DNA of 43,763 nucleotides from Gemmatimonadota bacterium. Lineage in GTDB: Bacteria > Gemmatimonadota > Gemmatimonadetes > Gemmatimonadales > GWC2-71-9. The position numbers were made by a program, and so were the translations under genes. Positions 29,644 through 32,272 of the stretch are shown one piece after another. Numbering within the stretch: position 1 is the stretch's first letter; each line of letters opens with the position of its first letter. Below the pieces are notes generated by a model that was not told the origin of the DNA, made no database searches, and worked only from the letters and a program-made list of their open reading frames with translations. The stretch is from assembly GCA_003223415.1 (NCBI GenBank), contig QHUY01000060.1, forward strand, positions 1-43,763. The letters are read 5' to 3'.

Positions 29644-30438
29644 TCAGAGCCTCCCCACTCTCGGGACTCCGCAAAGCTCCCGCACCGCCGCCGCCGGATC
29701 AGCGGCGCGCGCCACGGACGTTCCCACCAGCACGAGATCCGCGCCCGCCGCCGCCATTCGCGTGACGTCGGCCCGCGTCTCGATCCCGCTCTCGGCCACG
29801 GCCGGCACGTCCCGCGGCACCAGGGGGAGCAGCGACTCGAGGAGGCCAAGATTCACCGCGAACGTGTCCAGGTCGCGGCTGTTCACGCCGACTGCGGTCG
29901 GCTCGGCGGCGAGCGCCCCGTTGAGCTCCGGCGGCGAGTGCACCTCCACCAGCACGCCGAGCTCCATGTTGCGCGCCGCCCGGCTGAGGGCGGCCAGCTG
30001 CGCCGGCTCGAGGATGCGCGCGATCAGCAGCACCGCACTGGCTCCTACGGCGCGAGCTTGCAGGAGCTGCACCTCGTCGAGCACGAAATCCTTCAGCAAC
30101 GCCGGTACCGGAACGGCCTGGACGACTCGCTCAAGATCCTCCAGCGAGCCTCCGAAGTGGCGCTCGTCGGTGAGCACCGAGAGCGCCACGGCGCCACCCG
30201 CCACGTACGCCTGGGCATGCGTGACCGGGTCCAGGTCCCCCCTGATGTCGCCGGCGGAGGGAGACCGCCGTTTGACCTCCGCGATCACCCCGATGCTGGT
30301 GCCATGAAGAGCCGCGTGGAATGGCACCGGTGACCGCGCCGCCGCAGCGGCGCGCTCGAGCTCGCGGGCCCGCGGGCGCAGCGCCGCCACTCGCTCCCGG
30401 GTAAAGCTTAGGATGGAAGACAGCGAGGCGCGGGTCAT
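29644..30438 (-). CDS. trpC: Indole-3-glycerol phosphate synthase
   Basis: [76 protein letters not shown]. Start ATG at 30438. Confidence 0.96.
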
Positions 30439-30445
30439 CCTTGCG

Positions 30446-30489
30446 TTCGGGTGATTTTCGGGTACATTATCCTTCGGGCAATTTTCGGG
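30446..30489. promoter_or_regulatory. Candidate LexA operator pair: TTCGGGTGATTTTCGGG and TTCGGGCAATTTTCGGG around a promoter-like region
   Basis: Two TTCGGG-N5-TTCGGG direct repeats at 30446-30462 and 30473-30489; TTGCGT (30441) and CATTAT (30465) as candidate -35/-10. Confidence 0.62.
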
Positions 30490-30496
30490 AGACTGT

Positions 30497-31105
30497 ATGC
30501 CGCTGACGCGCCGCCAGCACGAGATCCTCACCTATCTGCAGGGCTATATCACCGACACCGGCTACGCTCCCAGCTTCGAGGAGATCGCCCGGCGCTTCGG
30601 TTTCAGCTCGCTGGCGACAGTGCACGAGCACCTCACCAACCTCGAGGGCAAGGGTTATATCCGCCGCGCCCACAACGAGAGCCGGGCGATCGAGATCGTG
30701 CCACCCAAGGGCCAGACCGGGGCCACCGAGCTGCCCCTGCTGGGACTGGTCGCCGCCGGCGAGCCGATCGAAGCGATCAGCGGCGCCGACACGATCGCCG
30801 TGCCCGACGAGCTCCTGCCCCGGCGCGGTCGCAGCTACGTGCTCAAGGTCCGCGGCAGCTCGATGATCGACGAGCACATCAAGGACGGCGACTACGTCGT
30901 CGTACACGAGCGCGCGCAGGCCGAGAACGGTGAGACGGTGGTCGCCTTGGTGGACGGCCACAACGCCACCGTCAAGAAGTACTATCGCGAGCCGGGCGGC
31001 TGGATCCGCCTGCAGCCGGCGAACCCGTCCATGTCCCCGATCCGCGTGAACGAGCGGGACGTGGTGCTGCAGGGGGTGGTCGTGGGCGTCATCCGGAAGT
31101 ACTAG
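30497..31105 (+). CDS. lexA: LexA repressor
   Basis: 202 aa; wHTH LTRRQHEILTYLQGYITDTGYAPSFEEIARRFGFSSLATVHEHL; Ala-Gly cleavage site VAAGEP; Ser GSSMIDEHI; Lys NATVKKYY. Confidence 0.96.
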   Translation: MPLTRRQHEILTYLQGYITDTGYAPSFEEIARRFGFSSLATVHEHLTNLEGKGYIRRAHNESRAIEIVPPKGQTGATELPLLGLVAAGEPIEAISGADTIAVPDELLPRRGRSYVLKVRGSSMIDEHIKDGDYVVVHERAQAENGETVVALVDGHNATVKKYYREPGGWIRLQPANPSMSPIRVNERDVVLQGVVVGVIRKY

Positions 31106-31167
31106 CACCGTTCCGACTCTCCTCCCGCGGTCTCGGAGAGCCACTCACGATGTCGGAACGGTACTAG
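31102..31167. repeat. Inverted-repeat element B: CTAGCACCGTTCCGAC / GTCGGAACGGTACTAG (16-bp arms, 1 mismatch), 34-nt loop
   Basis: Arms 31102-31117 and 31152-31167; core CTAGTRCCGTTCC shared with element A. Confidence 0.88.
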
Positions 31168-32200
31168 GACTAGCGCGGCGCAGGCGCTCGAGCGCCCCGC
31201 GCGCCGCGCCCGAGGTCACCGCCTCGTCCGCCCGCCGCACGCCCTCCGCATAGCTCGCGGCCAGCCCGGCCACGTAGATCGCCGCTCCGGCGTTGAGGAC
31301 GACGGCCGCGCGACCGGCGGAGTCGGCCCCATCCCCCGCGAGGATGCGCTCGAGACGCGCGGCGTTGGCCGCCGCGTCCCCGCCCTGCAGCCTCCCGCCG
31401 TCGGAAATCGCGAGGCCGTGGGCCGCCGGGTCGAGCTCCCACGTGCTCGTGCGGCCTTCCCGAATCTCCCACACGTCGGTGATGCCCTGCGGCGAAATCT
31501 CGTCCATCCCCACGCGACCGTGCACCACCATCGCGTGCTCGGTGCCCAGTCTGGCTAGGGCCTGCGCCAGCAGCGGCGCCCGGTCCCGGTCGGCGACGCC
31601 GACCAACTGTCGCTGCACGCCGGCCGGGTTGGCGAGCGGTCCGAGCAGGTTCATGACCGAGGTGATGCCGAGCTCGCGTCGCACTGGCCCGACGTGCCGC
31701 ATCGCGGGGTGAAAGTTCGGCGCGAACAGGAACGCCACCCGCGCTTCCCGCAGCAGACGCGCCGCCGCCGCGGCGTCGATTCCGATGGCGATTCCCAGGG
31801 CTTCGAGCACGTCCGCCGACCCGCACTTGGACGTGAAGGACCGGTTGCCGTGCTTTGCCACCGTCGCTCCGGCACCCGCCGCCACGAAGGCGGCGGCCGT
31901 CGAGATGTTGAAGGTGGTGACGGCGCCCCCCCCGGTCCCGCAGGTATCCACGAGATAGGGTGCGTTGGTCTCGACCCGCACCATCGCCGCGCGCAGCGCG
32001 CGCGCGGCGCCCGCCACCTCCTCCGGGGTCTCGCCCTTCACGCGCAGCCCGACGAGCAGGGCGGCGGTCTGGGCGGGCGTGGCCTCGCCCCGCATGACGG
32101 CGCCGAAAACGTCGGCCGCCAAGCGCTCGCTCAGGGACTGGCGGTCGGCTAGCGCGGTGATCGCCTGCTGGAGGGGGGGGGAGGAAAAGGCGTCGGCCAT
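31145..32200 (-). CDS. trpD: Anthranilate phosphoribosyltransferase
   Basis: YLVDTCGTGGGAVTTFNISTAAAFVAAGAGATVAKHGNRSFTSKCGSADVLEALG. Start assumed at MADAFSS (32200); the ORF extends to 32254. Confidence 0.95.
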   Translation of the reverse strand: MADAFSSPPLQQAITALADRQSLSERLAADVFGAVMRGEATPAQTAALLVGLRVKGETPEEVAGAARALRAAMVRVETNAPYLVDTCGTGGGAVTTFNISTAAAFVAAGAGATVAKHGNRSFTSKCGSADVLEALGIAIGIDAAAAARLLREARVAFLFAPNFHPAMRHVGPVRRELGITSVMNLLGPLANPAGVQRQLVGVADRDRAPLLAQALARLGTEHAMVVHGRVGMDEISPQGITDVWEIREGRTSTWELDPAAHGLAISDGGRLQGGDAAANAARLERILAGDGADSAGRAAVVLNAGAAIYVAGLAASYAEGVRRADEAVTSGAARGALERLRRASPSTVPTS

Positions 32201-32221
32201 GGAGGCTTTCGGGGTCGCGAA

Positions 32222-32250
32222 ACCTACGGCGGAAAATCGTCTTTTGTCAA
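32222..32250 (-). promoter_or_regulatory. Candidate promoter for trpD (TTGACA -35 on minus strand)
   Basis: Minus-strand TTGACA at 32250-32245, with TAGGTT-like -10 about 17-18 bp downstream. Confidence 0.4.
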
Positions 32251-32272
32251 ACACGACAACGGGTTGCGCCGC

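Follow-up and report, generated by a model that had tools for sequence, protein, structure and literature searches.

The lexA gene of Gemmatimonadota is very probably autoregulated by means of two direct-repeat LexA operators (SOS boxes) of the form TTCGG-N4-Y-N-TTCGG. In the window (i.e., the whole stretch of DNA analysed here, 43,763 nucleotides from a Gemmatimonadota bacterium, contig QHUY01000060.1), both boxes are located between the divergent genes trpC and lexA, where an earlier note on this DNA had taken them for the LexA operator. This predicted function is strongly supported by (i) the conservation of the boxes at lexA; (ii) the spacing of their half-sites; (iii) their position in the promoter; (iv) the members of the putative regulon, with boxes before recA and imuB-dnaE2; and (v) the covariation between the recognition helix of LexA and the operator.

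Organization of the lexA promoter

The trpC-lexA gap comprises 58 bp (30439-30496), the trpC ATG being the complement of 30436-30438 and the lexA ATG lying at 30497. The following features can be distinguished in this region:

29644-30438, minus strand: trpC, divergent neighbour of lexA (246.7 bits with the best NCBIfam TrpC model, no model's own cut-off being reached)
30441-30446, plus strand: lexA promoter -35 element TTGCGT, conserved as TTG[CTA] before box 1 in relatives
30446-30462, plus strand: SOS box 1, predicted LexA operator, TTCGGGTGATTTTCGGG; TTCGGG-N5-TTCGGG with core TTCGG-N6-TTCGG, filling the -35/-10 spacer
30463-30468, plus strand: lexA promoter -10 element TACATT; relatives have TANNNT immediately behind box 1
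30473-30489, plus strand: SOS box 2, predicted LexA operator, TTCGGGCAATTTTCGGG; covers the presumed start of transcription and the 5' leader
30497-31105, plus strand: lexA, 202 aa (TIGR00498; invariant alignment columns; PDB LexA relatives)
31103-31166, no strand assigned: inverted repeat where lexA and trpD converge at their 3' ends (z -4.5 on the minus strand, -1.8 on the plus strand)
31145-32254, minus strand: trpD (TIGR01245), convergent with lexA

The two copies of TTCGGG-N5-TTCGGG in the gap have the sequence and the positions (30446-30462 and 30473-30489) described in the earlier note, whose gene names lexA and trpC are also correct (TIGR00498, 210.4 bits, and TrpC models, respectively). 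Its -10 element (CATTAT, with an 18-bp spacer), instead, has to be replaced: relatives conserve TANNNT, which corresponds here to TACATT at 30463-30468, 16 bp from TTGCGT. The exact core TTCGG-N6-TTCGG is found in the window exclusively as the two 16-mers of these boxes, when 0.10 are expected from shuffles, and the double box appears once in the window and never in 100 shuffles. Furthermore, when the box is searched for together with its -10 element, this site is the sole match in the own genome.

The product of lexA matches the LexA equivalog model TIGR00498 over its full length (residues 2-201) with 210.4 bits, the cut-off being 110.95. Its recognition helix reads S38-L-A-T-V-H-E44-H-L46, while the cleavage site A87-G88 and the catalytic residues S122 and K160 are invariant in the alignment of relatives and match the positions of LexA proteins in the PDB. 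The closest proteins come from Gemmatimonadetes metagenome-assembled genomes (84-79% identity). The genomes of family f2 (L106-L120) carry, in addition, a second, divergent LexA with 24-37% identity and a promoter of its own that lacks the TTCGG box; this second LexA fits the duplication-and-divergence model for LexA motifs.

Regarding the mechanism, the two half-sites of a box would be placed one helical turn apart for a LexA dimer, which would bind with one of its DNA-binding domains flipped and so read both half-sites in the same direction. Since box 1 lies in the spacer between the -35 and -10 elements, a LexA dimer bound to it should exclude RNA polymerase; box 2 would cover the start site, whose position under this box is deduced from that of the -10 element. 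RecA-stimulated self-cleavage of LexA at Ala87-Gly88 would then release the predicted operators, and lexA, recA, imuB-dnaE2 and a radical-SAM gene, presumably for lesion repair, would be induced.

Conservation of the boxes upstream of lexA

The upstream regions of lexA were collected from named and unnamed relatives belonging to nine families of the same class and, once identical sequences had been removed, 143 distinct regions were available. The alignment of lexA upstream regions proposed in the earlier note reveals an exact TTCGG-N6-TTCGG in all of them (143/143), compared with 0.00017 boxes per 250 bp in shuffled upstream regions. Two exact boxes are present in 129 of the 143; among the 14 regions with one box, 13 have a further site nearby with 1-2 mismatches, the exception being L260. 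In the genome G019, a longer view of the upstream regions reveals boxes at both lexA and recA. A typical Gemmatimonadota lexA, with trpC and trpD as neighbours, is also present on the contig L225, which is labelled as Candidatus Kuenenia stuttgartiensis and probably reflects a mislabelled or mixed bin.

The spacing of the half-sites is equally constrained. N6 alone is enriched among pairs of TTCGG in the 143 regions (272 pairs, versus 0-3 at N0-N5 and N7), which confirms the half-site period of 11 bp that had been read from the window; a second peak, at N9-N12, corresponds to the distance between the two boxes. Inverted, palindromic arrangements of TTCGG are essentially absent from these 143 regions (0-1 per spacing), and a palindromic reading of the box was accordingly discarded. 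Within the spacer there is one constrained position, the second base before the second half-site, which is T or C. This constraint has no counterpart before the first half-site, either at 30446-30489 or in any of the relatives, and for this reason the LexA dimer may read the two halves unequally. The base preceding TTC is C (0.61), T (0.20) or G (0.15) in the first half-site, with G reaching 0.42 in the second.

The boxes also keep a fixed register with the promoter. In the two-box regions, TTG[CTA] is found at most 9 bp before box 1 in 127/128 cases and NTANNNT directly after it in 124/128 (the chance of TANNNT at a fixed position is 0.005), from which it follows that box 1 fills the -35/-10 spacer. 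Of the 119 genomes of the class, 112 contain the composite of box and -10 element, while a reversed control pattern yields 2 matches in total. Chance repeats, or a local duplication devoid of function, could be suspected from the shortness of the half-sites and from the existence of comparable arrays, outside any promoter, in certain viral contigs; such an origin is already refuted by the comparative data and deserves practically no credence, given the conservation across nine families with variable spacers, the fixed N6, the promoter register and the coherence of the regulon.

The predicted SOS regulon

The SOS core set described in the literature consists of lexA, recA and translesion polymerases (PMC8565304). 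The genome scan suggested in the earlier note turned out positive in the own genome, where an exact box precedes recA and the imuB-dnaE2 operon. More specifically, exact boxes with an A/T-rich spacer are found in this genome before (i) recA (TTCGGTATATATTCGG); (ii) a gene for a Y-family polymerase (PF00817, PF11799), with a DnaE that has PHP and DNA_pol3_alpha domains encoded next; and (iii) a radical-SAM gene. The latter (L152:1736-2973) has a short cysteine-rich ORF ahead of it, as it does in the relative G034 (L292), and both genes are possibly a lesion-repair pair. In the own genome and its relatives taken together, an exact box lies before recA at 29 of the 30 loci, and at the remaining one the box shows a single mismatch.

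The regulon, which was sampled throughout by pattern search rather than by full-matrix scoring, was also followed in the more contiguous relatives G018, G034 and G043. In these genomes, boxes precede lexA, recA, an imuB-type polymerase gene or an imuA-like ORF, and radical-SAM genes, though not all of them in every genome; the imuA-like ORF reads like imuA without a Pfam match. In G018, there are 19 exact matches versus 12 for the control, and matches in coding sequence occur near the background rate, so the core of the box is insufficient by itself to define the regulon. Matches with G/C-rich spacers, apparently within coding sequence (L274, L276, L282, L286, L289, L291 and similar loci), were counted as background. 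Likewise, boxes before genes for an acyl-CoA dehydrogenase and a PAS-domain protein (G018) and before a glyoxalase-family gene (G034) were not accepted as members of the regulon, as they lack conservation; the box-like sites L303 (acyl-CoA dehydrogenase, G018) and L277 (glyoxalase family, G034) might mark lineage-specific SOS genes. In the own genome, two paralogous genes for secreted proteins (L001:699-715 and L016:1501-1517) have in common the sequence CCGAAGGAACNCCGAA just before the start codon; it is the reverse complement of the box, lies over the ribosome-binding site and is probably a coincidence of paralogy.

Use of the box by phages was also considered and rejected: in the 46 viral contigs with a double TTCGG box, the boxes seem to belong to tandem arrays or to repeats in coding sequence, and no convincing lexA-type promoter was found among them. 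Some of these contigs (L382, L396, L401, L405 and L421) contain tandem arrays of TTCGG-N6-TTCGG with a period of approximately 23-28 bp and no lexA-type promoter; these may have another origin, as arrays for a repressor or a replication protein.

Recognition helix and operator in the sister class

The recognition helix of LexA is SLATVHEHL or SVATVHEH[LI] in the class of the window, and Glu44 is accompanied by TTCGG boxes in 138/138 cases. In the sister class, for which a query for more genomes yielded six in all, the helix is S[TP]ATVHKHL, and Lys44 is accompanied by TTCGC-N6-TTCGC boxes at lexA in 5/5. Base 5 of the box thus changes from TTCGG to TTCGC, and the layout of the lexA promoter is otherwise the same (TTGACT, box, TATAAT, box). 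One sister-class genome has a TTCGC box before a umuD-umuC operon as well; no box was found at recA in the sister class.

Glu44 aligns with Glu45 of Escherichia coli LexA, which is among the residues reported to contact DNA (PMC13416735). The base change would be explained by a presumed contact with the opposite strand, in which Glu44 prefers C and Lys44 prefers G. This covariation favours LexA as the protein that reads the box, and supports rather than proves it; as the Glu/Lys and G/C changes are a single evolutionary event, the cases do not constitute statistically independent evidence. Alternatively, the repeats might be read by another transcription factor that co-regulates lexA, recA and the translesion polymerases. 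The second LexA-like paralogs of one family would leave room for such a factor; but the targets are those of the classical SOS core (PMC8565304), the helix of LexA changes in step with the box, and the LexA2 paralogs have no box at their own promoters and are missing from most of the one-LexA genomes that retain it. A reader other than LexA is, in consequence, highly improbable.

Recognition by LexA itself, if true, would make of Glu44/Lys and TTCGG/TTCGC a switch of specificity that arose in nature, is open to testing and concerns a LexA for direct repeats. As the two classes share their promoter layout and differ in one residue and one base, they make it testable how LexA can change its specificity and still keep its regulon. 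On balance, it seems rather likely that the direct-repeat SOS box of Gemmatimonadota had not been described before and that its operators were rewired between both classes by a single swap in the recognition helix, Glu44 to Lys, with the matching change of TTCGG into TTCGC.

Relation to known LexA boxes

In Alphaproteobacteria, the LexA box is GTTC-N7-GTTC, which acts as operator of lexA and recA. Both this box and that of Gemmatimonadota are direct repeats with an 11-bp period and the common core TTC-N8-TTC, but in Gemmatimonadota no conserved G precedes TTC, and GG follows it; the alphaproteobacterial recognition helix also differs from SLATVHEHL. In Gram-positive bacteria, the LexA/DinR box is the palindrome CGAAC-N4-GTTCG. 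Its half-site has TTCG in common with the box of Gemmatimonadota, where, in contrast, the repeat is direct and inverted TTCGG is found 0-1 times per spacing. The helix motif TVHxHL of Gemmatimonadota resembles that of Bacillus subtilis LexA.

Balneolaeota, a poorly studied phylum, have a direct-repeat LexA box (TTACACATATTTTWTACATA) validated by EMSA, and their LexA regulon includes lexA, recA, translesion polymerases and a radical-SAM protein (PMC7739468). Both phyla thus have direct repeats and similar regulon members, the radical-SAM gene among them, but they differ in half-site and period, and the Balneolaeota box is EMSA-validated whereas that of Gemmatimonadota is known from genome comparison. 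In Bacteroidetes, non-canonical LexA-like repressors that are not true LexA recognize palindromic motifs (PMC8565304); in both phyla the SOS motifs are phylum-specific and come from comparative genomics, although the Gemmatimonadota protein passes the LexA equivalog model.

In general terms, LexA motifs shift drastically between phyla, and direct repeats arose more than once (PMC7739468; PMC8565304). The papers on LexA motifs that were consulted, these two among them, do not include Gemmatimonadota, and no LexA motif or SOS box for this phylum was found in the open literature, to which the search was largely confined, so that a report elsewhere is possible. With this box, a large soil phylum that is mostly uncultured would gain the SOS motif it has lacked, and its DNA-damage regulons could then be annotated.

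The tryptophan genes around lexA

The lexA gene lies antisense between trpD and trpC (29644-32254), an order that is kept in most of the class; an antisense interplay between the trp and lexA transcripts is possible. The trpC ATG is 7 bp from box 1, as had been noted earlier. This proximity, together with the adjacency of lexA and trpC in most of the class, could suggest that the boxes mainly control trpC, i.e., tryptophan synthesis, lexA being a bystander. As main target, trpC was rejected and is extremely improbable: the boxes remain at lexA in the absence of a trpC neighbour (e.g., L062, L069, L070, L080 and, in the sister class, L262-L266), are also found upstream of recA and polymerase genes, and are in register with the -35 and -10 elements in the direction of lexA. 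Because they persist where the trpC/trpD neighbours are absent, the boxes belong to lexA.

A different question is whether they serve both divergent genes, LexA repressing lexA and also repressing, or blocking transcription into, trpC-trpB. Given the distance of 7 bp, a trpC promoter located within the 58-bp gap would necessarily coincide in part with the boxes, and the hairpin where lexA and trpD converge could cut trpC off from trp transcription arriving from upstream; but no promoter in the direction of trpC was found that is conserved among the relatives, and transcription from the trpD side, running antisense through lexA, could also reach trpC. Such dual control is possible, though less likely than not.

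The hairpin just mentioned (31103-31166) consists of a perfect 11-bp inverted repeat, ACCGTTCCGAC ... GTCGGAACGGT, with a strong fold on the minus strand and no T-run. It is a possible bidirectional terminator and may separate the transcripts of lexA and trpD. A similar inverted repeat is found at the same place between lexA and trpD in L055.
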